DNA from: Siphonodentalium dalli
Taxonomy: Eukaryota > Mollusca > Scaphopoda > Gadilida > Siphonodentaliidae
Direction: 5' to 3'
DNA: 64,000 nucleotides
Assembly: GCA_032622095.1 (NCBI GenBank)
Contig: CP136062.1
Coordinates: forward strand, 51,413,349 to 51,477,348
A model generated the notes under the pieces. That model was not told the origin of the DNA and did no database searches. It saw only the letters and a list, made by a program, of their open reading frames with translations. Below, in pieces: positions 4,288 through 57,353 of the stretch. Position numbers and translations under genes: made by a program. Position 1 is the stretch's first letter. Each line of letters opens with the position of its first letter.

Positions 4288-4541
4288 CAAGCCTTGAAAT
4301 AGGGTGTCTGTCATTTGCAGAATGAGGTCCCCAGAGGGTGAATTTAGTGATGCTACCCCACATAACGGGCTAGCATCACCAAATTCACCCTCTGGGGACC
4401 TCATTCTGCTTACACCTTAGCAGAATGAGGTTCCCAGAGGGTAAATTTGGTGATGCTAGCCCGCTATGCGGGGTAGCATCACTAAATTCACCCTCTGGGG
4501 ACCTCATTCTGCAAATGACAGACACCCTATTTCAAGGCTTG
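4288..4541. mobile_element. MITE-B, short form, perfect 8-bp duplication
   Basis: 254 bp. TGTGCAAT is at 4280-4287 and again at 4542-4549. Terminal repeats CAAGCCTTGAAATA are exact. Two double-palindrome units inside. The 8-bp duplication and CA...TG ends point to hAT. Confidence 0.92.
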
Positions 4542-5807: not shown

Positions 5808-6197
5808 TTAACCCTTTACCCAACAAACCGGCTAAAACCGGCCAAATAAAGCTTCAACAGCCTAAAATATCTTCGGTCTGTCTCAATAGAACCATACAAA
5901 TATGTATATCATTGGAACCGGCTCCTTGACCACATTGTGATAGTTACAGTTATGCCCTGTGCCAATGCATTCTCTTATATATGCGAGTCGACCATAGGTC
6001 GCCTCGCATATATAAGAGAATGCATTGGCCTAAAAAAAATCTTTTTTTACCATTTTTTCTTACATTCTTTAACAATTTTATAATTTTTAATGTGTTAAGC
6101 CAATGCATTCTCTTATATATGCGAGGCGACCTATGGTCGACTCGCATATATAAGAGAATGCATTGGCACAGGGCCGTTCTGTTGGGTAAAGGGTTAA
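5808..6197 (+). mobile_element. C1 TTAA element, complete
   Basis: TTAA on both sides. Ends CCCTTTACCCAACA and its inverse. The left part carries AACCGG repeats and the ATCTTCGGTCTGTCTC segment. Hairpins at 5961-6029 and 6099-6167 are inverted copies of each other around a T-rich spacer; each has near-perfect arms starting GCCAATGCATTCTC. Confidence 0.9.
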
Positions 6198-6277
6198 GAA
6201 GCCCAAGTAATCATTTATTCCAGGTAACTTAATACCTACAGTGATATTGAGATGAAAACTGGATCAAATTTCCAAAG

Positions 6278-18014: not shown

Positions 18015-18233
18015 TACAGTAATGCTCTAATTAATCGACCTCTTAACCACAGCAGAGAATTATGGGTAACTTTTCAGGATTTAGTCGGAAATATGGCTTG
18101 TTGCCATTCATCGGAAAGCTCTCGTCGAGAGCTTTCCAATGAATGGCAACAAGCCATATTTCTGACTAAATCCTGAAAAGTTACCCATAATTCTGCTGTG
18201 GTTAAGAAGTTGATTACTTAGGGCATTACTGTA
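18015..18233. mobile_element. MITE-A, complete
   Basis: TA-flanked full palindrome; left outer arm of the CTAATTAATCGACCTC subtype, right of the TTACTTAGGGC subtype. Confidence 0.9.
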
Positions 18234-18525: not shown

Positions 18526-19189
18526 CATGAAGGGAGCTGCACTGGTTCTCTTATATATGCAAGTCTCCCACCTCGCATATATAAGAGAATGCAGTACTGG
18601 CTTACAAGGTCAAGGCAGATATATTATTAGGTCAATGTATTCTCTTTATTTAACCCTTTACCCAACAAACTGGCCAAAACTGGCCAAAACCAGCCAAATA
18701 AAGCTTCAACAGCCTAAAATATCTTCGGTCTGTCTCAATAGAACCATACAAATATGGATATCATTGGAACCGGCTCCTTGACCACATTGTGATAGTTACA
18801 GTTATGCCCTGTGCCAATGCATTCTCTTATGTATGCGAGTCGACCATAGGTCGCCTCGCATATATAAGAGAATGCATTGGCCTAAAAAAAATCTTTTTTA
18901 CCATTTTTTCTTACATTCTTTAACAATTTTATAATTTTTAATGTGTTAAGCCAATGCATTCTCTTATATATGCGAGGCGACCTATGGTCGACTCGCATAT
19001 ATAAGAGAATGCATTGGCACAGGGCCGTTCTGTTGGGTAAAGGGTTAATCGAGGCTCCCTTTGGGAGACTCACATATATAAGAGAATGCATTGGCACAGG
19101 GCCCTTATGTTGGGTAAAGGGATATAAGAGAATGCATTGGCACAAAGGTTTTCGCAAAATGTCATGAGCTCCAGTCATGGAAGGGTTAA
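18526..19189. mobile_element. C3 TTAA element split by a nested C1
   Basis: Starts TTAACCCTTCCATGAAGGG and ends CAGTCATGGAAGGGTTAA. A C1 element occupies 18650-19048. The right part contains an extra copy of ATAAGAGAATGCATTGGCAC. Confidence 0.75.
18650..19048 (+). mobile_element. C1 TTAA element, nested in C3
   Basis: TTAA on both sides; ends CCCTTTACCCAACA. Nearly identical to 5808-6197, so it is a young insertion. Confidence 0.88.
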
Positions 19190-20004: not shown

Positions 20005-20230
20005 TACAGTAATGCTCTAAATAATCGACTACTTAACCACAGCAGAATTATGGGTAACTTTTCAGGATTTAGTCAGAAATATGGCTTGTTGCCATTCATC
20101 GGAAAGCTCTCCCCGAGAGCTTTCCGATGAATGGCAACAAGCCATATTTCCGACTAAATCCTGAAAAGTTACCCATAATTCTGCTGTGGTTAAGAAGTCG
20201 ATTACTTAGAGCATTACAGCCTTTACTGTA
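20005..20230. mobile_element. MITE-A, complete
   Basis: TA-flanked; right end carries a small insertion (GCATTAC-AGCCTTT-ACTGTA). Confidence 0.88.
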
Positions 20231-20318
20231 TATCATTATACAACTGTCTGTCCTTATACCTTTTGCAACCTTACGCTGTTTCCTCACAGAACTCCTCAGT
20301 ATTACAGAGTATTATGTC

Positions 20319-20708
20319 TTAACCCTTTACCCAACAGAAGGGCCCTGTGCCAATGCATTCTCTTATATATGCGAGTCGACCATAGGTCGCCTCGCATATA
20401 TAAGAGAATGCATTGGCTTAATACATTAAAAATTATAAAATTGTTAAAGAATGTAAGAAAAAATGGTAAAAAGTGTTAAATTTTTTTATTTTTTTAGGCC
20501 AATGCATTCTCTTATATATGCGAGGCGACCTATGGTCGACTCGCATATATAAGAGAATGCATTGGCACAGGGCATAACTGTAACTATCACAATGTGGTCA
20601 AGGAGCCGGTTCCAATGATATCCATATTTGTATGGTTCTATTGAGACAGACCGAAGATATTTTAGGCTGTTGAAGCTTTATTTGGCCGGTTTGTTGGGTA
20701 AAGGGTTA
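20319..20708 (-). mobile_element. C1 TTAA element, complete
   Basis: TTAA on both sides; inverted relative to 5808-6197 and almost identical to it and to 54289-54679. Confidence 0.9.
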
Positions 20709-22009: not shown

Positions 22010-22225
22010 TACAGTAATGCTCTAATTAATCGACTCTTAAACACAGCAGAATTATGGGTAACTTTTCAGGATTTAGTCAGAAATATGGCTTGTTGCCATT
22101 CATCGGAAAGCTCTCCCCGAGAGCTTTCCGATGAATGGCAACAAGCCATATTTCCAACTAAATCCTGAAAAGTTACCCATAATTCTGCTGTGTTTAAGGA
22201 GTCGATTAATTAGAGCATTACTGTA
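22010..22225. mobile_element. MITE-A, complete
   Basis: TA-flanked, almost exact palindrome (CTCTAATTAATCGACTC subtype). Confidence 0.92.
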
Positions 22226-22291: not shown

Positions 22292-23126
22292 CAAGCCTTG
22301 AAATAGTGTGTCTGCCATTTACATAATGAGGTCACACAGCAAGCTAGCATCACTAAATTCACCCTCTGGGGAACTCATTCTGCTTAGGCCTCATCTTCTG
22401 GGAATTATCTCCAGTCTCAAATTAACATTGTTTTTAGTTACCTTTCCCTTTTGTTCAGTTTCTATATCCCCTAATTTGCAGAAGATAAATTGCATAATCG
22501 AGGTGACTAATGGGTGAAACATCACCAACTTCAACTGGGGAACTTCAATCTGATCCTAGGTCCACAATTATAACAGTTGCGGTCTAAAGCAGAATGAGGT
22601 TCCCAGAGGGTGAATTTGGTGATGCTAGCCCACTAGCTGTGCAGGATAGCATCACTTATTTGAAGTTCACCCTCTGGGGATATCATTCTGTTTAACCCTT
22701 TACCCAACAAACCGGCCAAAACCGGCCAAAACCGGCCAAATAAAGCTTCAACAGCCTAAAATATCTTCGGTCTGTCTCAATAAAACCATACAAATATGGA
22801 TATCATTGGAACCGGCTCCTTGACCACATTGTGATGGTTACAGTTATGCCCTGTGCCAATGCATTCTCTTATATATGCGAGTCGACCATAGGTCGCCTCG
22901 CATATATAAGAGAATGCATTGGCCTAAAAAATTCTTTTTTTAACACTTTTTACCATTTTTTCTTACATTCTTTAACAATTTTATAATTTTTAATGTGTTA
23001 AGCCAATGCATTCTCTTATATATGCGAGGCGACCTATGGTCGACTCGCATATATAAGAGAATGCATTGGCACAGGGCCCTTCTGTTGGGTAAAGGGTTAG
23101 GACAGACACACTATTTGCAGGCAAGT
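22292..23126. mobile_element. MITE-B split by a nested C1
   Basis: Starts CAAGCCTTGAAATAGTGTG. The final CATTCTG is separated from GACAGACACACTATTTGCAG by the C1 at 22692-23098. Confidence 0.8.
22692..23098 (+). mobile_element. C1 TTAA element, nested in MITE-B
   Basis: Left TTAA, right TTAG (mutated). Ends CCCTTTACCCAACA; one extra CCGGCCAAAA unit; both hairpins intact. Confidence 0.88.
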
Positions 23127-29597: not shown

Positions 29598-29682
29598 TAC
29601 TGTTGGGTAAAGGGTTAAAGTAATAAAAGCAGACGGCATATAAAAGCACCCTATTTATGGTCGTTTGTTGAATTTGTTTTCT
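29598..29682 (+). mobile_element. C1 right terminus beside a family F segment
   Basis: ACTGTTGGGTAAAGGGTTAA is a C1 end; the following GGTCGTTTGTTGAATTTG belongs to family F. Confidence 0.55.
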
Positions 29683-30260
29683 GAACATTTCCTATGGGTT
29701 AACTACTCATCAATGATGCTTTAGTATAGAAAGAGTTAAACTTATTATCTGAACATTTCCTATGGGTAACTACTCATCAATGATGCTTTATTATAGAAAG
29801 TGTTAAACTTATTATCTGAACATTTTCTATGGGATAACTACTCATCGATGATGCTTTAGTTTAGAAAGGGTTAAACTTATTATCTGAACTATAAATGATG
29901 CTTTAGTATAGAAAGGGTTAAACTTATTATCTGAATATTTCCTATGGGATAACTGCTCATCAATGATGCTTTAGCATATAAAGGGTGAAACTTATTATTT
30001 GAACATTTCTTATGGGATAACTACTCATCGATGATGCTTTAGTTTAGAAAGGGTTAAACTTATTATCTGAATATTTCCTATGGGATAACTGCTCATCAAT
30101 GATGCTTTAGCATATAAAGGGTGAAACTTATTATCTGAACATTTCCTATGGGATAACTACTCATCGATGATGCTTTAGTTTAGAAAGGGTTGAACTTATT
30201 ATCTGAACATTTCCTATGGGATAACTACTCATCAATGATGCTTTAGTACAGAAATGGTTA
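29683..30260 (+). repeat. ~68-bp tandem array made from the family F 3' end, nine copies
   Basis: Each unit reads ACTTATTATCTGAACATTTC ... CATCAATGATGCTTTAGTAT and ends AGAAAGGGTTAA, the terminus of family F. The fourth copy is partly deleted. Confidence 0.9.
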
Positions 30261-30363
30261 AATATTATTTGATAACCCAATCACCCAAAGCTATTCAAAT
30301 ACTCTTAACCTTCTTGATGTAAATTGCAGGAAATTCATCCCATGAGTAGCAATAAACTATATT

Positions 30364-32550: not shown

Positions 32551-33580
32551 ATAATCTATTATATATTTTGGAAGATCTGTGTGTCTGTGTGTCTGTCTGT
32601 AATCGATGGACTCGAAAACGGCCAATTTCGATGAAACTTGGTATGTGGGGGTATTTTCGGCCGGGGAGTGACATAGGCCTATTAATTTGCCCGTGCGACG
32701 TGACCTTGACCTTGAAATCTCTATTATATATTTTGGAAGATCTGTGTGTCTTGTCTGTAATCAATGGACTCGAAAACGGCCGAGCCGATTTCGATGAAAC
32801 TTGGTATGTGGGGGTATTTTCGGCCGGGGAGTGACATAGGCCTATTAATTTGCCCGTGCGACGTGACCTTGACCTTGAAATCGGGTAATTTCAAGGTCAA
32901 ACGCCCGAATAACACAGGATTTCGATGAAACTTGGTATGTGGGGGTACCTTCGGTCGGGGAGTGGCATAAACCTATTAATTTACCCGTGCGACGTGACCT
33001 TGACCTTGAAATCGGGTCATTTCAAGGTCAAACGCCCGAATATCACGGGATTTCGATGAAACTAGGTATATGGGGTTACTTTCGGTCGGGGAGTGGCATA
33101 GGCCTATTAATTTGCCGTGCGACGTGACCTTGACCTTGAAATCGGGTCATTTCAAGGTCAAACGCCCGAATATCACGGGATTTCGATGAAAATTAGTTTC
33201 TAGGGATACTTTCGTATGGGAGTCTCATGAGCCTATTCATTTGCCCGTGCGACGAGACCTTGACCTTGAAATCGGGTCAATTCAAGGTCAAATCGCGAAT
33301 TTTGATGGGATTTACACGAAATTTGATACATAGGGTTACTTTTATCCACTGGGTGTTTTGGACAGGTCAAATCGTGACCACGACCTCACCTTGACCTACA
33401 AAATGATCAATTCAAGGTCAAATCGGGTAAAACAGGATGGATTTCGACGGGCACGTTTGTCAGGTACTTTTGATTGGGCAGTGTTTTGGACGGGTCAAAT
33501 CGTTACCCCACCTGACCTTGACCTTCAAAATGGTCAATTCAAGGTCAAAGCCCGGACGAAGTCGGGTCACCTTCTAGTTA
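32551..33580 (+). repeat. 130-bp tandem array with nuclear-receptor half-sites
   Basis: Unit contains GATTTCGATGAAACTTGGTA, CGGGGAGTG..ATAGGCCTAT, TGACCTTGACCTTGAAATC and TTTCAAGGTCAAACGCC. Six to seven copies start near 32625, 32790, 32920, 33051, 33181, 33310 and 33440, more diverged to the right. TCAAGGTCA or its inverse occurs about a dozen times. Confidence 0.9.
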
Positions 33581-35222: not shown

Positions 35223-35476
35223 CAAGCCTTGAAATAGTGTGTCTGTCATTTGCAGAATGAGGTCAACAGAGGGTGAATTTAGTTATGCTACCCCGCATAG
35301 TGGGCTAGCATCACCAAATTCACCCTCTGGGGACCTCATTCTGCTTACACCTCAGCAGAATGAGGTTCCCAGAGGGTGAATTTGGTGATGCTAGCCCGCT
35401 ATGTGGGGTAGCATCACTAAATTCACCCTCTGGGGACCTCATTCTGCAAATGACAGACACCCTATTTCAAGGCTTG
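35223..35476. mobile_element. MITE-B, short form, perfect 8-bp duplication
   Basis: 254 bp, same length as 4288-4541. GAGGTTAG is at 35215-35222 and 35477-35484. Ends CAAGCCTTGAAATAG. Confidence 0.93.
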
Positions 35477-41631: not shown

Positions 41632-42064
41632 TTAAAGTGATGTGAAACACTCCGGTAGGGTGATCAAATAGGAAACACTCCGGTACGGTGAACAAATAGG
41701 AAACACTCCGGTACGGTGATCAAATAGAAATGGAGAATAATCTTGCTCAAAGTAGTAATTTTTACAAATAGTATATCCAAATTGGCAACAAACACCACCA
41801 TTCTTATATATTAATTAAATAGAGTGACTCTCGATGGCGATATATCGTTTTCGTTAACTTATCACAGATAGTTGCTTCCCGATTCGAGAAGTAAATATTT
41901 ACAATTGCGCGTAGTACAGACGTTTTCTATGGAGTGGCTATATGTCGATTTGTTTGAAATTTTCGGCAATGTTACTAGAATGCTATTTTCCGCCAGTTGG
42001 CATAGTGTCTGACTATTAACTTACTAGTTTCACACACCTGAACAAGTACATAGTATATCTTTAA
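41632..42064 (+). mobile_element. Family D TTAA element, copy 2
   Basis: TTAA-flanked; starts AGTGATGTGAAACACTCC, ends AGTATATCTTTAA. The CACTCCGGTA start segment is triplicated. Matches 61869-62242 and, inverted, 15544-15976. Confidence 0.8.
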
Positions 42065-42130
42065 GACGCAGGAAGGGCAAATGCATTATTTCCATTCAGC
42101 TCTGTTGAGTTAGATGACTTGGAATTAAAC

Positions 42131-42251
42131 TACAGTAATGCCCCGAGAGCTTTCTGATGAATGGCAACATGCCATATTTCCGACTAAATCCTGAAAAGTT
42201 ACCCATAATTCTGCTGTAGTTAAAGAGTCGATTACTTAGGGCATTACTGTA
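42131..42251. mobile_element. MITE-A, left arm deleted
   Basis: TA-flanked; left tip CAGTAATGCC joins the central GAGAGCTTTCTGATG and an intact right arm. Confidence 0.87.
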
Positions 42252-42289
42252 TGTCTTCTTCACCAATGTCTAATATGTGCATAATTTTT

Positions 42290-42500
42290 TTGCACGAGGG
42301 ACTGATGGCTATTCAAGTTCAAGTTCTTTGTTTGTAATGTACATATCAACATAACAATGGTCAAAAGGTAACAAACAAAAAATAGCGATAATACATTACT
42401 GGGAGGTGGCATGACCTCTGGTCGTCTTCCTACCATCTCCCTGGAAAAAACTTCCTTTCTGGCTCTGAGCTCCCCTGGTCAGTGGTCAATCTTTCAAATT
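42290..42500 (-). mobile_element. Putative 3' tail of the retroelement-like segment
   Basis: Read on the minus strand, the DNA downstream of the broken frame includes GTACATTACAAACAAAGAAC followed by TTGAACTTGAA. Such short repeated tails terminate many animal LINEs. No reverse-transcriptase motif is visible, so the class is open. Confidence 0.3.
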
Positions 42501-42711
42501 AAACTTATGCTTAAATGGCATTGCAACTTTTGTCAACAACATAATAATACTGCTACTGCAATATCATAGGATACTAATTATTGCTGTTTTTTCATTTAAT
42601 GAAAATTGTTGAATGAAAATGATAATAATGATGAGAGACAGAACAAGTATCTAAATATCTAAACAGGTTTATCAGTTTCCTATAATTTGTTGGTGATATG
42701 TTATGACTACC

Positions 42712-43110
42712 TCATGACATGACGCCTGGATAGCAATCATGACAATATAAGTTTTTACATTCAACTTTTTCAAGGTAAGACTCGATTAATTCTTGTGTAA
42801 CCTGGCGTTTAAAGTTGGTACGTGGCATAAGGGATTGTAAATTTATGTCAACTTCTTTCCATTGTTTTGGGAAGATATGTAGTGGTAGGTTTTCCGTAAA
42901 TGTGGTTCTGGCCATAGTTTCGTGACTATCGACCCATGCAGTCTATAATAGTGTAATCCCTGGAGTTGGCAGTACTTCATATAGAGGAGCTGAGGTATCA
43001 ATTTCAACCAGAACGTTTCTAGATGTGTCAGATTCTTTCGCTTGTGAAATCATTTCCAGGACACCAATTGTGTGATCGATAGTCGATTATGATGCTATTT
43101 TCACTGGGGA
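42712..43110 (-). pseudogene. Broken reading frame, probably from a decayed retroelement
   Basis: On the minus strand a frame from about 43090 to 42712 reads IGVLEMISQAKESD ... VLVEIDTSAPLYEVLPTPG, meets one TAG near 42955, then continues without a stop through FPKQWKEVDINLQSLMPR and ends KNLYCHDCYPGVMS before a stop. A segment just upstream is in another frame (KLCMIICIPSENS), suggesting a frameshift. The composition looks like real protein, unlike the palindrome read-throughs elsewhere. Downstream on the same strand, at 42300-42350, is a tail with repeated AACTTGAACTTGAA, common at 3' ends of invertebrate non-LTR elements. I do not recognise the protein. It could be a retroelement ORF or a processed pseudogene in the KChIP intron. 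Confidence 0.4.
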
Positions 43111-43144
43111 TGCAGATTATCATACAAAGTTTGTCAGCTTCAAA

Positions 43145-43290
43145 CACCAGATGTAAGATGAGAGGTCGGCTCACTAACCGACTGAACTATCCGATCCTCC
43201 AGACGTAAGATGAGAGGTCGGCTCACTAACCGACTGAGCTATCCGACCGGCTCACTAACCGACTGAGCTATCCGATCCTCCAGATGGCAA
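43145..43290 (-). repeat. tRNA-derived SINE-like fragment, partly triplicated
   Basis: On the minus strand the sequence reads GGATAGCTCAGTCGGTTAGT, a good pol III A box as at the start of a tRNA. The CTCACTAACCGACTGAGCTA segment occurs three times in about 100 bp, as a local tandem duplication. No B box or tRNA body follows, so this is not a functional tRNA gene. Confidence 0.5.
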
Positions 43291-43348
43291 ATTTATATAA
43301 CCAACATGGTTATTGCCAGGAATGTCAGAGCGCATGGCTTTTATGATT

Positions 43349-43511
43349 TACAGTAATGCCCTAAATAATTGACTCCTTAACCACAGCAGAATTATGGGTA
43401 ACTTTTCAGGATTTAGTCGGAATATGGCTTGTTGCCATTCATCGGAGTGAGAGATGAATGGCAACAAGCCATATTTCCGTTGAGGAGTCGATTATTTAGG
43501 GCACTACTGTA
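43349..43511. mobile_element. MITE-A, shortened, 104 bp upstream of the KChIP exon
   Basis: TA-flanked. Right half shortened (CCATATTTCCGTTGAGGAGTC). The right half plus the following intron end are copied in inverted form at 46803-46983. Confidence 0.88.
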
Positions 43512-43619
43512 CATGATCCTCCAGGTGACAAATTTATATAACCAACCACGGTCAGAGCTTGTGGCTTTTAAGATTTTAATTTTCATATCATGTTTATATC
43601 TTATTTTTTTTCAGATCAT
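43438..43619. repeat. Inverted duplication, upstream arm (includes splice acceptor)
   Basis: From TTCATCGGAGTGA through the polypyrimidine tract and the first five exon bases; about 98% identical to the inverse of 46803-46983. Confidence 0.93.
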
Positions 43620-43739
43620 GATATTGATGATTTGGAGATGCAGGTTGCACGGTACAAACCCGAAGGACTCGACATTCTCTGTAAAAATACCAAGTTTACC
43701 AAAAAGGAACTGCAGATAATGTACAGAGGATTCAAGCAG
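43615..43739 (+). CDS. KCNIP: KChIP (Kv channel-interacting protein), internal exon, 125 nt
   Basis: This exon encodes 41 complete residues starting [18 protein letters not shown] and ending [12 protein letters not shown]. It matches the KChIP/calsenilin N-lobe: a short acidic linker, the RYKPEGL segment, a TKFTKKEL helix and the YRGFKQ entry to EF-hand 1. KChIPs are cytosolic EF-hand proteins that bind the N terminus of Kv4 channels and tune their surface expression and inactivation; calsenilin/DREAM also acts in the nucleus. The acceptor is a T-rich tract ending TTTTTTTTCAG and the donor is CAG|GTATAT. The first two bases complete a codon begun in the previous exon (upstream intron phase 1); the exon ends in phase 0. 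The variable first exon is not visible, so the upstream intron may exceed 43 kb or an alternative start may be unseen. As I recall, vertebrate KCNIP genes also have a 125-nt exon here. Confidence 0.95.
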
Positions 43740-43742
43740 GTA

Positions 43743-44112
43743 TATATACCCTTACTTTACTAAATGGATTCTCCCACTCAGTTATAAAAGTATATGTTGG
43801 AATGGTCTATTGGAAGAATGGTCTCCCATAGCAAATGAGGTCATGCAGAATGAAGTCCCCAGAGGATGAATTTAGTGACCCTATCTTTACTAAATGGATT
43901 CTCCCACTCAAGCCTGAGTTTATTGTGCCTGTCATTTGCAGAATGAGGTTCCCAGAGGGAGTATTTAGTGATACTATCCCGTATAGTGGGCTAGCATCAC
44001 TAAATTCACTCTCTGTGAACCTCATTCTGTGTGGCCTCATCTGCTATGGGAGACATATAGACTCAGATTGAAGTTTCCAAGTGGTGAATATTGTGATGTG
44101 ATGAAGGTCAAT
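43743..44112. mobile_element. Mosaic of family F and MITE-B pieces after the exon
   Basis: 43746-43830 and 43885-43907 are family F starts (TTTACTAAATGGATTCTCCC). 43830-43884 and 43908-44112 are MITE-B pieces. The order suggests repeated insertion and deletion. Confidence 0.65.
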
Positions 44113-44329
44113 TACAGTAATGCTCTAATTAATCGACCTCTTAACCAAAGCAGAATTATGGGTAACTTTTCAGGATTTAGTCGGAAATATGGCTTGTTGC
44201 CATTCATCGGAAAGCTCTCGGGGAGAGCTTTCCGATGAATGGCAACAAGCCATATTTCCGACTAAATCCTGAAAAGTTACCCATAATTCTGCTTTGGTTA
44301 AGAGGTCGATTAATTAGAGCATTACTGTA
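44113..44329. mobile_element. MITE-A, complete, nearly perfect palindrome
   Basis: TA-flanked; arms mirror each other almost exactly around CTCTCGGGGAGAG, including a shared AAGCAGAATTATGG variant. Sits inside MITE-B. Confidence 0.93.
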
Positions 44330-44462
44330 GTAAGGCTACCCCAAGCAGCGGGCTAGGATCACCTAATTCATCCTCTGGGGACCTCATTCTGCATGGCCTC
44401 ATCTGCTATGGGAGATCATTCTGCCAATAGATGATTTCAATATATACTTTTATAACTGAGCG
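44330..44462. mobile_element. MITE-B remainder and an inverted family F start
   Basis: CACCTAATTCATCCTCTGGGG hairpin half, then ATACTTTTATAACTGAGCGG, the inverse of the family F start. Confidence 0.55.
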
Positions 44463-44474
44463 GGAGCGAGTCTG

Positions 44475-45290
44475 ATTATATCGTGTCTGTCATTTGCAGA
44501 ATGTGGTCCCCAGAGGGTGAATTTAGTAACGCTATCCTGCATAGCGGGCTAGCATCACTAAATTCACCCTCTGGGGACCTCACTCTGCTTTGGCCTCATC
44601 TTTTCTGGAAAGTTTCTTTACTATCAAATTTCTATAGAACTTCCTCACATAGATTCTATTTCTTTGCATACGTACACCCCTCAACGAAGTGGTGGGGGGT
44701 ATACTGGAATCAGCTTGTCCGTCCATGGACACAAATTTGTCGGGAGTTTTTCTGTCATTTTTTTTTATCATTTTCTGTGAAACTTGGCACAGTCATCAAC
44801 CACCATGGAAACCTGTGCACCTGCGATTATGACGTCTGTCGGACATTCTTGGTGGAGTTATCCCCCTTTTTCGACTTAGAATTTTTTTCGCAACATGTAT
44901 AATTTTGTTCAAGTTTTTATTCCTACATTTTTAAATCAATTTATTTTAAGCTTGGCACATATACTTAGTACCATGGGAACCTGTGCACCTGGGATTATGA
45001 CGTCTGTCCCACTCTTTTTTGTGGAGTTATTCCCCTTTTTCGACTTGGAACATTTTCGCAACATGCTTAATTTTGTTCGAGCTTTTATTCCTATATTTTT
45101 CAATCAATGGGATTAGGGTTAGGGGTTAGAGTTCAGCACCTGCAATGGGAATCTGTTATTTTTATTATTTTAACTTTGTTTACTGACATGTGAAACATCT
45201 TAGTGTGTTAAAAACACAATCCTTAGTCCCATTGGGACAGTCACACCTCTAGTTCAGTTTAGTTTCTCTATATCCCCAAATTATCCAAAA
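44475..45290. mobile_element. MITE-B, interrupted by a 590-bp insertion
   Basis: Left hairpin and internal segment to GATTCTATTTCTTT, then foreign DNA to about 45260, then TTTAGTTTCTCTATATCCCC resumes. Confidence 0.75.
44668..45260 (+). repeat. Insertion with two ~165-bp tandem units
   Basis: Each unit has GTGAAACTTGGCACAGTCAT-like, ATGGGAACCTGTGCACCTG, GATTATGACGTCTGTC and GGAGTTATTCCCCTTTTT. Begins CACCCCTCAACGAAGTGGTG and ends CCCATTGGGACAGTCACACC. Class unknown. Confidence 0.7.
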
Positions 45291-45329
45291 TTAATGTTTC
45301 GAGCCATTTTCGAGGTCCAGGGACCAGTC

Positions 45330-45437
45330 TACAGTAATGCCCTAATTAATCGACTCCACAACCACAGCAGAATTATGGGTAACTTTTCAGGATTTAGTCG
45401 GAAATATGGCTTGTTGCCATTCATCGGAAAGCTCTCA
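45330..45437. mobile_element. MITE-A, left arm only
   Basis: TA then the full left arm to GGAAAGCTCTCAG. Confidence 0.8.
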
Positions 45438-45847
45438 GTTCGGAAAGATCAGTTGATTGATCATCGTCCTTCATTGGCACATTGTCGTACCAAAATTATT
45501 GTACATGATCCTGCATGATCTGATATGTACAAATGCATAGGGAAACTTTCATGACAGTCAATGGCTGTTAGATGATACATCGTGGTGTGCTACTATGCTA
45601 CACTCATTGAAATACAAAATAAAAGTAATTCCCTTTCACGAGGCATCTCAACTCTGGCACAAAGTTACGGGGCAGTGATGTTGTACCTGCATTTGCATGT
45701 TTTTCTTGAATTCCCGAATTTGTTTGTTGTTTACTTTCGTGAAAAAGGGGCTGTTTTCCGGCCACGATCTGCATATTTGTATAGTAATGATCCTATTTTC
45801 TTGCCAGAAGAACGATTCCTTATCTGGAAATATGGCTAATGGTTCTA

Positions 45848-46066
45848 TGTCCCCTAATTTGCAGAAACTAAAATGTGCATAATCGAGGTGACTACTGGGA
45901 AACTTTAATCTTATCCTAGGTCTCCCATAGCAGTTGAGACCTAAGCAGAATGAGGTCCCCAAGGGTGAATTTGGTATGCCAGCCCGCTGTGCTGGATAGC
46001 ATCACTAAATAAACCCTCTGGAGACTTCATTCTGCAAATGCCAGACACAATATATTCAGGCTTTGA
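45848..46066. mobile_element. MITE-B, right part
   Basis: Internal CCCCTAATTTGCAGAAAC segment and right hairpin, ending CCAGACACAATATATTCAGG. Confidence 0.72.
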
Positions 46067-46498
46067 TGGAGGAAAATCAGTAATAATGACATTATTGTCT
46101 GTAACAGACATGAAAGCATGGTGCGTGGGTGTGGATACATGTTTGTGAGGGTGAGTGTGTAAACCCAACTCTCTGAAGACATTCATATATTAAAACAATG
46201 GCCTGACAATGTTAACAATTTTTTCCCTTAAGACCAGTTAAGGTGACGACAATTTCTATTTTTTGACATTTTTGACATTTTTTCACATGCGTTACAAACA
46301 TTCCCGTTATTTAGTTAAAGGTACCCTCCGAGTTTGGATATATTTACGAAATAACGGGAGTCCTCACAACTATGGTATTGTTTGAATTTCTAAAGAAATG
46401 TCCCCACAACGTATGTAATACAAACAAGGGTGTGTTTGTGTGAAATATTCCGCTTGAGTGGCGTGCCCAATATCCACAACCTCAGGTACTGTTCCCAC

Positions 46499-46700
46499 TT
46501 AACCCTTTCTGTACAAAATGGATTCTTCCAGTCATTTATAAAGGTATACATTGGAATGGTCTATTATTTATTTGGAGGGGTGTTCAAGATAAATTAGCAG
46601 ATGACAGTCAAGATGATAATATAATACAACTGTGGAAGAATTCATATTCATCAGTGGGAAATGTTCTTATGTTGAAATTATTATCTGAACATTTCCTAAT
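46499..46700 (+). mobile_element. Family F, left part
   Basis: TTAACCCTTTCTGTACAAAAT through TTATCTGAACATTTCCTAA; MITE-A follows at 46704. Confidence 0.72.
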
Positions 46701-46703
46701 GGT

Positions 46704-46802
46704 TACAGTAATGCCATAAATAATCGACTCCTTAACCACAGCCAAATTAGTGGTAATTTTTCAGTCGGAAATATGGCTTGTTGCCATTCATCTCTCACTC
46801 CG
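46704..46802. mobile_element. MITE-A left arm at the inverted-duplication breakpoint
   Basis: TA, CAGTAATGCC and arm to CATTCATCTCTCACTCCG, then the inverted KChIP intron end. Confidence 0.8.
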
Positions 46803-46983
46803 ATGATCTGAAAAAAATAAGATATAAACATGATATGAAAATTAAAACCATAAAAGCCACAAGCTCTGACCGTGGTTGGTTATATAATTTTGTCACCTGG
46901 AGGATCATGTACAGTAGTGCCCTAAATAATCGACTCCTCAACGGAAATATGGCTTGTTGCCATTCATCTCTCACTCCGATGAA
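46803..46983. repeat. Inverted duplication, downstream arm
   Basis: ATGATCTGAAAAAAATAAGA to TCACTCCGATGAA is the inverse of 43438-43619 with three substitutions and one indel by my reading. Confidence 0.93.
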
Positions 46984-46991
46984 CAGGGCCC

Positions 46992-47195
46992 TACAGTAAT
47001 GCCCTAAATAATCGACTCCTTAACCACAGCAGAATTATGGGTAACTTTTCAGGATTTAGTCGGAAATATGGCTTGTTGCCATTCATCGGAAAGCTTTCCA
47101 ATGAATGGCAACAAGCCATATTTCCAACTAAATCCTGAAAAGTAACCCATAATTATGCTGTGGTTAAGGAGTCGATTATTTAGGGCATTACTGTA
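46992..47195. mobile_element. MITE-A, complete
   Basis: TA-flanked full palindrome. Followed by a family F right end (GTATTTAGTATAGGAGGGGTTAA, to 47233). Confidence 0.9.
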
Positions 47196-47519
47196 ACTAC
47201 TCGACAACAAGTATTTAGTATAGGAGGGGTTAACCTGGGTAATATCCAATACTCTGTATCAGTTTACGGTTATCGATAACAGTATAGTCATCACACAATT
47301 GACATTTCCACCGTCTGTGTCCGCAGCGTATGTGGCTTCTCGCCATGTAGTATAATTGCGTTAATAATCAACTGGGTGTTATTTGCGTGATCGAAAGCTA
47401 TATTTAGTAGAAGAATTGTCTGACATCAAGTCGAATCACTTAAGCATTTTAAGTATTTGGTCCAAATGTTAATTGTAGGGCCCAGTTCAACTCCAGTGGA
47501 ACCCTAGCGACAATGATGG

Positions 47520-47962
47520 GAAGGCTGCAAATGGTGTGTCTGTGATTTGCAGAATGAGATCACCAAAGGGTGAATTTAGTGATGCTATCCCGCACGGTGG
47601 GCTAGCATCACCAAATTCACCCTCTGGGGACCTCATTCTGCTTAGCCTCATCTTCTGGGAAATATCTACGGTCTCAAATTAACATTGTTTTTAGTTACTT
47701 TTTCTCTTCTTGGAAGTTTCTATATCCATAATTTGCAGAATATAAAACGGATAATCGAGGTGTCTAATGGGTGAACATCGCCAACTTCAACTGGGGAAAT
47801 TTAAACTGATCAATCATAGGTGTCCCATAACAGTTGAGGCCTAAGCATAATGAGGATCACAGAGGGTGAATTTGCTGATGCTAGCCCACTGTACAGGGCA
47901 TCACTAAATTCACCCTCTGGGAACCTCTGCAAATGACAGACACACTATTTCTCGGCTTGCCT
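47520..47962. mobile_element. MITE-B, long form
   Basis: TGGTGTGTCTGTGATTTGCA start, two hairpins with internal segment, end CAGACACACTATTTCTCGGC. Confidence 0.78.
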
Positions 47963-48465
47963 AATATGCATTTCGGTATAAAATGTCATTCATTTGAGAT
48001 CTAAGAACGACATGGAATAAACATAAGAATCCAATTTACGCTGCCGTTAACAGAGAACAGGCCCATTATGTCTCATTCGATTGGCTGTTTGTGCGATCCA
48101 GATGAAGTCACTCATGTTGTTTGCATTCAATATAAGAAAGAGGAATAAATTTCGATTGCATGCTACGACACTGAGGCTGAATCTGTTTACTCAAGTTTCC
48201 AATTCCTGTCACGGTTTTGTGATCGTGGAGTCTGAAGCATTCGTTTTATTTACACGATTCTCCGATTGATATCATGTATTTGTGATCATTGGCGGGGGTC
48301 AGACAACTTCGTCGAAGCATTGCAGTCCAATCAATACACCAATTGGCACTGCCTTACAATTAACGGCACCTATGTGAGAAATGCATTATGGGATAGGAAT
48401 TGATTGGAGTGCAGCATCAGTTTGTGTAAACATCAATTTTATCATTGATTTTTTTCCCGAAAACA

Positions 48466-48660
48466 AAGTGGTTGGATTAGCTGATATGATTTATTTTAAT
48501 GGGAATAATGCCGCGCTGTTGGAGATTACGTTCTATCGATTAACATATGTCCGGACAATTTGCGGTATATTAATAATGCCTCTGTTAATTTCATGACAGT
48601 GATTTCCGAATTGATATGCAACTTGGGATTTACATGGCAATTTTACAAATTTCGTGACTA
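48466..48660 (+). repeat. Interspersed repeat J, copy 1
   Basis: TTAGCTGATATGATTTA to GATTTACATGGCAATTTTAC matches 50160-50350 in order. The open frames here differ between copies, arguing against coding. Confidence 0.7.
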
Positions 48661-53633: not shown

Positions 53634-53703
53634 GAATGTCCGCTTGGTATCGTCAATGAAGAAACCTTCAAAGATATTTATGCCCAGTTCTTCCCCCAAG
53701 GTG
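53634..53703 (+). CDS. KCNIP: KChIP, next internal exon, 70 nt (EF-hand 1)
   Basis: This exon encodes 23 residues, ECPLGIVNEETF followed by KDIYAQFFPQG, plus one base of the next codon. It is EF-hand 1 of the neuronal calcium sensor family. The Cys-Pro pair inside the loop is the family hallmark that stops this first EF-hand from binding calcium. The acceptor is CTTTACTTGTAG and the donor GTG|GTAAGT is close to consensus. It joins in phase 0 to the exon ending at 43739, giving GFKQ-ECPLG as in KChIPs, and ends in phase 1, expecting a G|AN (Asp) codon next. The intron between the two exons is 9,894 bp. No downstream KChIP exon (the FNAFD segment and EF-hands 2-4) was found before 64000, so that intron is longer than 10.2 kb. 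Confidence 0.95.
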
Positions 53704-54288
53704 GTAAGTAATATTTTGTTCTTCATAATAGGGTTATAACTATGTAAAAGAACAAATGTAGGGGGCATTCAAAGGATAAACTTTTAAGAAACACTCAGTA
53801 TTTGTATACATGTACATGCACTATAGTGAAGCTGATGGGGTCATTGTCACAATGCATCGATCTAATTCATAGCCAGTTTTTTAAATCGATCACATTTGTA
53901 GCTAGCTTTTCAAATTCTATATCATTTTATGACGCAATATATGATGTCATCATGTGAACACGTGACCAAAATGGTGACGTCATGCTCCAAAATTGAGTTA
54001 TTTTATTAAGTAATAGGAATAGAACTCGAGCAATTTATATATAAAAATGATTAACACTAATATCTAAATTATTTTCCTCCCTTATAAATGTAAGTTGTTT
54101 TTCACCCATCTACTCAAGAATGTGATTAGCCGAACAATTAGTCTCGTTCATTATAGACCCACATGAATAGGAATATCTGGCTAAGATTGTGATCACCCTT
54201 GAAATGCTAGCTACATTTGTGATCGATTTTGAAAATCTGGTTACAAATCAGTCTCTTTGAAAATCCGACAATATAATCTTAACCCTTT
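53704..54288. other. Start of the next KChIP intron, no element recognised
   Basis: AT-rich, with repeated AGCTAGCTTTTCAAATTCTA-like phrases; nothing coding seen. Confidence 0.5.
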
Positions 54289-54679
54289 ACCCAGCAGAAC
54301 GGCCCTGTGCCAATGCATTCTCTTATATATCCGAGTCGACCATAGGTCGCCTCGCATATATAAGAGAATGCATTGGCTTAACGCATTAAAAATTATAAAA
54401 TTGTTAAAGAATGTAAGAAAAAATGGTAAAAAGTGTTAAAAAAAAGATTTTTTTTAGGCCAATGCATTCTCTTATATATGCGAGGCGACCTATGGTCGAC
54501 TCGCATATATAAGAGAATGCATTGGCACAGGGCATAACTGTAACTATCACAATGTGGTCAAGGAGCCGGTTCCAATGATATCCATATTTGTATGGTTCTA
54601 TTGAGACAGACCGAAGATATTTTAGGCTGTTGAAGCTTTATTTGGCCAGTTTTGGCCGGTTTGTTGGGTAAAGGGTTAA
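54289..54679 (-). mobile_element. C1 TTAA element, complete
   Basis: TTAA on both sides; ends CCCTTTACCCAGCAG (left) and TGTTGGGTAAAGGG (right); nearly identical to 20319-20708. Confidence 0.9.
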
Positions 54680-55239: not shown

Positions 55240-55558
55240 CGATGTTTATGTATAGGATGTTTATGTATAGGATGTTTATGTATAGGATGTTTATGTATAG
55301 GATGTTTATGTATAGGTTGTTTATGTATAGGATGTTTATGTATAGGATGTTTATGTATAGGATGTTTATGTATAGGATGTTTTATATGGATAGGATGTTT
55401 ATGTATAGGATGTTTATGTATAGGATGTTTATGTATACATGTAGGATGTTTTATATGGATAGGATGTTTATGTATAGGATGTTTATGTATAGGATGTTTA
55501 TGTATAGGATGTTTATGTATAGGATGTTTATGTATAGGATGTTTTATATGGATAGGAT
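55240..55558 (+). repeat. 15-bp minisatellite, about 20 copies
   Basis: Unit TTTATGTATAGGATG with some longer variants (TTTTATATGGATAGGATG). The period is divisible by three, so it gives a 120-codon MFMYR-repeat frame that is not a gene. Confidence 0.95.
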
Positions 55559-56037: not shown

Positions 56038-56466
56038 CCTGAAATTGGGTCAGGACACCTGAGTTATACCTTGTGATCAGCCCTATCCACCTACTCATTA
56101 ATTGGCTGTTCAGATGGAGTGACATCTTAACCTATTTTCAACTTAACTCTTTCGCTGCCAAACGCGCATAAATGCGAACTTCGAAGACGCTGCCAATCGC
56201 GCATTTTGCGAATTTGGTATGTAGTCTAATGTATGGGATATAATTCTATTCTTTCCGGCATGTTTGACAGTGTACAATGTATTTATCTGTAGTACTGTTG
56301 CGCGCGAACAATTTAAAGCGACAATGTCCTCAAGGTCATGCTATTTCTGATGTTATGGGAGTACAGTCAGAGCCGGAATATTGCGTCATTGTTGTTAGCA
56401 CGTGGTTATCAGTCGAAAATGGCTGCTAGCAAAAGACTCTGGACTGAAGAAGTTATTGTTATTACC

Positions 56467-57353
56467 TCTATACTCTAATGATTGAGGGTGCCTGCGGCGC
56501 ATAAGTTACTTATACCTATTATTTATGTGGGCAGTAGCCTTTATAGGGGCGCCTGCGGCGCATAAGATACTATGAGTGGCGGGATGGGGTGGTGGATGGG
56601 TAACTAACCTCTATACTCTAATGATCGAGGGGGCGCCTGCGGCGCATAAGATACTTATACCTATTATTTATGTGGAAGTAGCCTCTATGGGGGCGCCTGC
56701 GGCGCATAAGATACTATGGGGTGGTGGGTGGGTAACTAACCTCTATACTCTAATGATCGAGGGGCGCCTGCGGCGCATAAGATACTTATACCTATTATTT
56801 ATGTGGCAGTAGCCTCTATGGGGGCGCCTGCGGCGCATAAGATACTATGGGTGGCGGGGTGGTGGGTGGGTAACTAACCTCTATACTCTAATGATCGAGG
56901 GGCACCTGCGGCGCATAAGATACTTATACCTATTATTTATGTGGCAGTAGCCTCTATAGGGGCGCATAAGATACTATGGGTGGTGGGTGGGTAACTAACC
57001 TCTATACTCTAATGATCGAGGGGCGCCTGCGGCGCATAAGATACTTATACCTATTATTTATGTGGCAGTAGCCTCTACAGGGGCGCCTGCGGCGCATAAG
57101 ATACTATGGGTGGCGGGATGGGGAGGTGGGTGGGTAACTAACCTCTATACTCTAATGATCGAGGGGCGCCTGTGGCGCATAAGATACTTATACCTATTAT
57201 TTATGTGGGCAGTAGCCTCTACAGGGGCGCCTGCGGCGCATAAGATACTATGGGTGGCGGGATAGGGTGGCGGGTGGGTTACTAACCTCTATACTCTAAT
57301 GATCGAGGGGCGCCTGCGGCGCATAAGATACGGTACTTATACCTATTATTTAT
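56467..57353 (+). repeat. ~140-bp GC-rich tandem array, seven copies
   Basis: Unit: CTATACTCTAATGATCGAGG, GGCGCCTGCGGCGCATAAGA, TACTTATACCTATTATTTAT, then a second GGCGCCTGCGGCGCATAAG and GGTGGGTGGGTAACTAAC. AATG anchors at 56478, 56620, 56752, 56890, 57011, 57154 and 57298. Confidence 0.92.

Follow-up and report, generated by a model that had tools for sequence, protein, structure and literature searches.

A KChIP exon in Siphonodentalium dalli whose splice acceptor has a near-identical inverted copy in the next intron, with possible conditional masking in RNA

An exon of a KChIP gene in the scaphopod Siphonodentalium dalli lies between two near-identical inverted repeats, one of which runs through the exon's own splice acceptor. 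Such an arrangement raises two questions: how an antisense copy of a splice signal came to lie in the following intron of the same gene, and whether that copy pairs with the signal in the pre-mRNA and alters splicing. We addressed both in the surrounding 64,000-nt stretch of DNA (contig CP136062.1), here called the window; the coordinates of its relevant features are collected in Table 1.

Table 1. Features of the KChIP exon, its flanking arms, and the neighboring MITE-A elements (positions within the window)
Feature	Position	Strand	Basis
KChIP exon, 125 nt; split codon (2 nt) at its start, complete codon at its end; donor at 43740, GTATAT	43615-43739	+	protein match
3' splice-site zone inside the upstream arm: candidate branch points TTAAT, TTCAT, and TTTAT; polypyrimidine tract; AG at 43613-43614	43570-43614	+	sequence
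Next KChIP exon, 70 nt, in frame with the 43615-43739 exon	53634-53703	+	probe match and junction reading
Upstream arm, 182 nt: right half of MITE-A, then 108 nt covering the end of the intron and the start of the exon	43438-43619	+	alignment, blastn
Downstream arm, 181 nt: antisense copy of 43438-43619, within the 9,894-bp intron after the exon	46803-46983	-	alignment, blastn
Diverged partial duplicate of the upstream arm's non-MITE part; used to polarize arm differences	43270-43352	+	blastn
Upstream MITE-A, a palindrome whose right arm carries an internal deletion; its short loop, CATCGGAGTGAGAGATG, is at 43440	43349-43511	+	blastn, sequence
Downstream MITE-A left arm plus loop, the loop opposite in orientation to the upstream one; ends at junction ATGA (46803-46806)	46704-46806	+	
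Separate MITE-A palindrome directly 3' of the inverted copy	46992-47195	+	

The exon was identified from its translation (43617-43739, 41 residues), 37 residues of which align to Kv channel-interacting protein 4 (KChIP4; E = 3.2e-10); calsenilin matched at E = 9.6e-10, hippocalcin-like 1 at 0.021, and NCS-1 at 0.029. Judged by these protein matches, the exon is closer to KChIPs than to other neuronal calcium sensors; a Pfam search with the 41 residues came back empty. The following exon was found with a human KChIP1 probe sequence, and the remaining 23 of the 25 matches listed for that probe had E values of 3 or worse; 9,894 bp of intron separate the two exons. Among the matches listed, no upstream KChIP exon was recognized in the window, a search in which the probe could miss poorly conserved first exons, and the intron upstream of the 43615 exon may be long. 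Because the exon is 125 nt in length, skipping it would shift the reading frame.

A first-pass annotation had reported a near-identical inverted copy of 43438-43619 at 46803-46983, and our alignment bore this out: the 182 nt of the upstream arm and the reverse complement of the 181-nt downstream arm differ by three substitutions (upstream positions 43533, 43571, and 43573) and one 1-nt indel, a T missing from a T-run. Chance similarity is ruled out by the strength of the blastn match (97.8% identity, E = 2e-86). The content described for the upstream arm is likewise visible in its sequence: a 74-nt MITE-A right half (43438-43511) is followed by 108 nt of non-MITE DNA (43512-43619) comprising the end of the intron, with putative branch points picked by eye, the polypyrimidine tract, the AG, and the first 5 nt of the exon. 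Within the window, the inverted copy is the single other near-full blastn match to this non-MITE part (E = 2e-46); weaker matches cover 32 nt at 43274 (E = 5e-9) and 26 nt at 43324 (E = 0.005). All four differences between the arms lie in non-MITE DNA, leaving the 74-nt MITE half identical, a distribution that could be due to chance, so few are the differences. When polarized by the diverged duplicate at 43270-43352, the change at 43571 falls on the upstream branch and those at 43533 and 43573 on the downstream branch; such separate changes in each arm argue against a copy made during assembly.

MITE-A, which we take to be Tc1/mariner-like, is a palindromic element found at 34 merged places in the window, with exact cores on both strands (23 plus, 16 minus); its 33-nt core pattern had no exact match in viral and genome contig collections without eukaryotic genomes. 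Its ends are terminal inverted repeats that start and end with TA (TACAGTAATG...CATTACTGTA), for example at 18015-18233, 22010-22225, and 44113-44329; other places among the 34 have an end cut back or altered. At 22 of the 34 places, 15 nt or more have been deleted or truncated. Of the 35 ends of these losses, 13 fall no more than 15 nt from the palindrome center versus 5.0 expected if ends were uniform (binomial tail, 7e-4), which would fit MITE tips as break points. The count is rough: it takes a single copy as the reference, includes some hand-widened borders, treats mutually dependent ends as separate, and leaves out the MITE half that forms part of the inverted copy, and neither of the two MITEs at the focal junctions contributes an end within 15 nt of the center.

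Both junctions of the inverted copy lie at MITE loops. The downstream copy begins where a MITE-A left arm meets the loop CTCACTCCGATGA, followed by the antisense of the exon start; its far end consists of that MITE arm and loop again, in antisense relative to the upstream element. The downstream non-MITE piece thus sits between two direct copies, each 41 nt long and spaced by 176 bp, of the MITE arm with its loop, a feature that the first-pass annotation does not mention. As read from the sequences, the downstream junction shares ATGA (TCAT on the exon strand). Microhomology at this point had been noted before as CAT, 3 nt; it is present, and its length is 4 nt rather than 3. Since TCAT is shared, only one of the five exon bases was unambiguously copied. 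The template-switch origin that had been suggested for the copy is supported, with this longer microhomology. We envisage a template switch during DNA synthesis, from one palindromic MITE-A copy to another at their hairpin tips, that would have carried the acceptor end of one KChIP intron, with the first exon base or bases, into a MITE loop in the next intron.

Other routes to the same structure deserve mention. A small circle of locus DNA, of which the downstream side would hold about 1.2 copies of a 176-bp unit, could have recombined into the downstream MITE, and this fits as well. It is also possible that the two MITE copies have their loop in common through descent; however, none of the other MITE-A cores, whether among the 23 plus-strand or the 16 minus-strand exact ones, shows the loop. 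With both strands searched, the exact 17-nt loop CATCGGAGTGAGAGATG occurs at three places in the window, all within the inverted-repeat structure. Given its absence from the other cores, the downstream loop was probably copied too.

Is bracketing by inverted repeats itself what sets this exon apart? We rejected that view because inverted pairs are ordinary in the window: pairs of at least 50 nt within 4 kb bracket 128 of 160 grid points, and nine of them bracket the 43615 exon and six the 53634 exon; within 10 kb, the corresponding numbers of pairs are 47 and 15. A pair of at least 300 bits brackets 30 of the 160 grid points (the focal pair accounts for 12 of the 30). Across the window, 52 pairs, the focal one included, reach at least 280 bits with arms more than 200 nt apart. 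Another pair bracketing the exon within 10 kb (35628-35844/44110-44326) scores 306 bits versus 307 for the focal pair. The distinctive feature of the focal pair is that one arm contains an acceptor: this holds for one of the two recognized exons, and among the pairs listed for the second exon none touches it.

Whether the arms might find each other in RNA was assessed with minimum-energy folds, which describe naked RNA at equilibrium and ignore proteins, kinetics, and splicing. In the predicted fold of 43300-47300 (-1714.5 kcal/mol), 177 of the upstream arm's 182 bases have their partner in the downstream arm, consistent with the earlier proposal that the arms could pair over about 3.2 kb of pre-mRNA; with pairing span limited to 3,000 nt, the same segment folds at -1555.1 kcal/mol and forms no arm-arm pairs. 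The non-MITE duplex is predicted at -163.5 kcal/mol versus -13.8 and -17.3 kcal/mol for the local folds of its parts. The MITE half of the arm can instead fold into the upstream MITE hairpin (-92.6 kcal/mol), a competing structure. Arm pairing is largely retained in a wider fold of 42000-48600 (172/182) and in a fold at 15°C (165/182; in the acceptor zone, 34/50). Although neither arm includes the donor GT at 43740, it is paired in all four folds of the wider-window and temperature set.

For the acceptor, the predictions are more telling. Three of the 50 bases of the acceptor zone (43570-43619) are unpaired in the native fold of 43300-47010, compared with 21 once the downstream arm has been removed or flipped and in each of 17 shuffles of it, which makes the suggestion that pairing could mask the acceptor a plausible one. 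The AG and its neighbors stay paired in these controls, so part of the zone would be structured anyway. Growing transcripts starting at 43000 suggest when such a mask would form. At five ends from 43760 to 46800, 21 to 25 of the 50 zone bases are predicted to be unpaired (25 to 29 paired); once the transcript reaches 46840 and contains 38 nt of the arm, 38 zone bases pair with that arm, placing the onset between these last two ends; and from 46870 on, 47 of the 50 do so. Stable long-range pairing over a splice site, the property by which a structure is classed as obstructing that site, is thus found in the predicted pre-mRNA fold.

We tentatively favor a recent inverted duplication through a MITE template switch as the origin of the pair, with conditional masking of the acceptor in RNA, an interpretation to which we give slightly less than even weight. 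Once transcribed, the downstream arm would pair with the acceptor region and hide the branch point, polypyrimidine tract, and AG; if this happened before the splicing machinery bound the acceptor, the 125-nt exon would be skipped, with a frame shift, or spliced late. Most transcripts would probably escape, as the polymerase passes the acceptor 3.2 kb ahead of the mask. The RNA effect is likely to be weak, conditional, or nil, given the late transcription of the mask and the break in frame that skipping would cause. Moreover, selection should remove a strong mask from an exon that the reading frame depends on, and persistence of the pair through ∼1.7% divergence points to an effect that is small or nil. 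A human survey of long-range complementary regions (PMC8052449) is in line with effects of this kind: exons looped out by such regions are less included, and the regions are depleted at active splice sites and occur 20% below expectation at branch points. On the other side, that survey reports no substantial depletion at polypyrimidine tracts. It also reports that the regions are enriched outside circRNAs (PMC8052449).

Nearly as probable as conditional masking, and thus a serious contender, is that the inverted copy is a neutral passenger: the acceptor would be committed to splicing before its mask is transcribed, and transcripts would show no measurable effect. The 3.2 kb between acceptor and masking arm, the unpaired bases predicted for transcripts ending at or before 46800, the abundance of inverted pairs in this region, and the drift of both arms all fit such a view. 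Against it stand the predicted stability of the non-MITE duplex, which is without a competing full-length partner in the window, and the possibly long upstream intron.

At the other extreme, the copy could act as a splice-switching antisense in cis, a transposon-assisted slip having made exon inclusion hinge on the acceptor being bound before the polymerase reaches the copy. We regard this stronger proposal as unlikely. If it were true, the element would be a timer of transcription or of acceptor-recognition speed, with slow-splicing transcripts diverted to the frame-shifted, skipped form.

Exon circularization, in which arm pairing would join the donor at 43740 to the acceptor at 43614 and yield a 125-nt single-exon circle, is a further reading that we consider unlikely. 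Complementary sequences do flank the exon on both sides, and the predicted fold brings them together. A C. elegans study (PMC8330042) reports that removing one flanking-intron match abolished or strongly reduced the circRNA in 6 of 6 genes tested, and that in the circRNA gene glr-2 the downstream match extends to a 3' splice site; it also reports that complementary matches promote skipping. However, the acceptor needed for back-splicing (43613-43614) lies within the duplex here. HIPK3, a circRNA gene whose structure was probed, is described in PMC12093144 as having no long-range pairing that connects its splice sites, and inverted repeats are said there to predict circularization only modestly. 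Taking from HIPK3 that the acceptor and donor of a circularized exon are left outside the duplex, we found the opposite at this acceptor, 47 of whose 50 zone bases are predicted to pair with the arm. We therefore placed circularization low as a main reading: the duplex would hinder rather than help it. Of the two outcomes that the first-pass annotation had attached to the exon-enclosing layout, skipping is plausible and circularization weak, and masking with skipping or delay appears the more coherent account.

Least probable is an assembly artifact made from mis-joined reads or haplotypes. In its favor, the region is rich in palindromic repeats, which are difficult to assemble; against it, each arm has changes of its own (one substitution upstream, two downstream, as polarized by the diverged duplicate), and the junctions sit at MITE loops with 4-nt microhomology.

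Taken together, the arrangement is real and unusual, made of ordinary ingredients, and its effect on RNA is probably modest. Searches for other RNA features gave nothing further: all 12 Rfam matches in 42000-48000 were under gathering scores, and ARAGORN found no tRNA. Our literature search found no paper linking KChIP, circular RNA, and an inverted repeat, which is not proof of absence from print. If conditional masking does operate, the locus offers a natural test of the speed of acceptor commitment, with a near-perfect mask whose distance is known and whose deletion would leave the acceptor intact. More generally, palindromic transposons may furnish a gene with an antisense copy of one of its own splice signals, and inverted repeats that flank an exon need not imply circularization when an arm contains the splice site.

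The closest parallels each share part of this arrangement. Reverse complementary matches or inverted Alu pairs around circularized exons likewise have complementary arms a few kilobases apart on both sides of a single exon; here, by contrast, the duplex would hide the acceptor, the candidate branch points, and 5 nt of exon sequence, all of which lie in the upstream arm. The human catalogue of long-range complementary regions (PMC8052449) also concerns distant pairing within pre-mRNA, with reduced exon inclusion or a blocked splice site as the predicted outcome, but its members were selected for conservation with repeats excluded, whereas the focal pair is recent, repeat assisted, and near perfect over ∼180 nt. 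Inverted duplications by fold-back or template switching at palindromes resemble it in having a microhomology junction, a palindrome at the break, and inverted nearby DNA; the present one differs in being small (∼180 bp), in having both junctions in MITE loops, and in that the copied piece is a splice acceptor. Finally, splice-switching antisense oligonucleotides cause exon skipping when their antisense sequence covers a 3' splice site; here the antisense is encoded in cis, in the same pre-mRNA and downstream of its target.

The palindromes of MITE-A, a palindromic MITE, account for ~5.5 kb of the 64-kb window (summed lengths of its 34 merged places). Damaged copies in the window are broken at the palindrome centre in excess of what a uniform spread of break points would give. 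A second palindromic family, of ~254 bp, matches itself in both orientations; copies of another repeat family, of ~370 to 400 bp and present in both orientations, share 95 to 98% identity. The units that make up the window's long tandem arrays include one of 15 bp, present in ~20 copies, and one of 144 bp, present in ~6.

Repeat features of the window (MITE-A places are examples)
Feature	Position
MITE-A palindrome	20005-20217
MITE-A palindrome	22010-22225
MITE-A palindrome	44113-44329
~370-400 bp family	5808-6199
~370-400 bp family	18677-19048
~370-400 bp family	20315-20692
~370-400 bp family	22719-23102
~370-400 bp family	54277-54679
~254 bp palindromic family	1724-1974
~254 bp palindromic family	4288-4541
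~254 bp palindromic family	35223-35476
Long tandem array	29680-30262
Long tandem array	32555-33422
Long tandem array	55241-55544
Long tandem array	56464-57331

The short local repeats at 43167-43284 read GGATAGCTCAGTCGGTTAG on the reverse complement, which we take to resemble a tRNA-type A box; judged by this motif, they are possibly SINE heads. A tRNA search with ARAGORN found none.

MITE-A left arms (43349-43437 and others) contain AACTTTTCAGG, which by eye looks like a splice acceptor; because of this resemblance, MITE-A copies may carry a cryptic acceptor with them.
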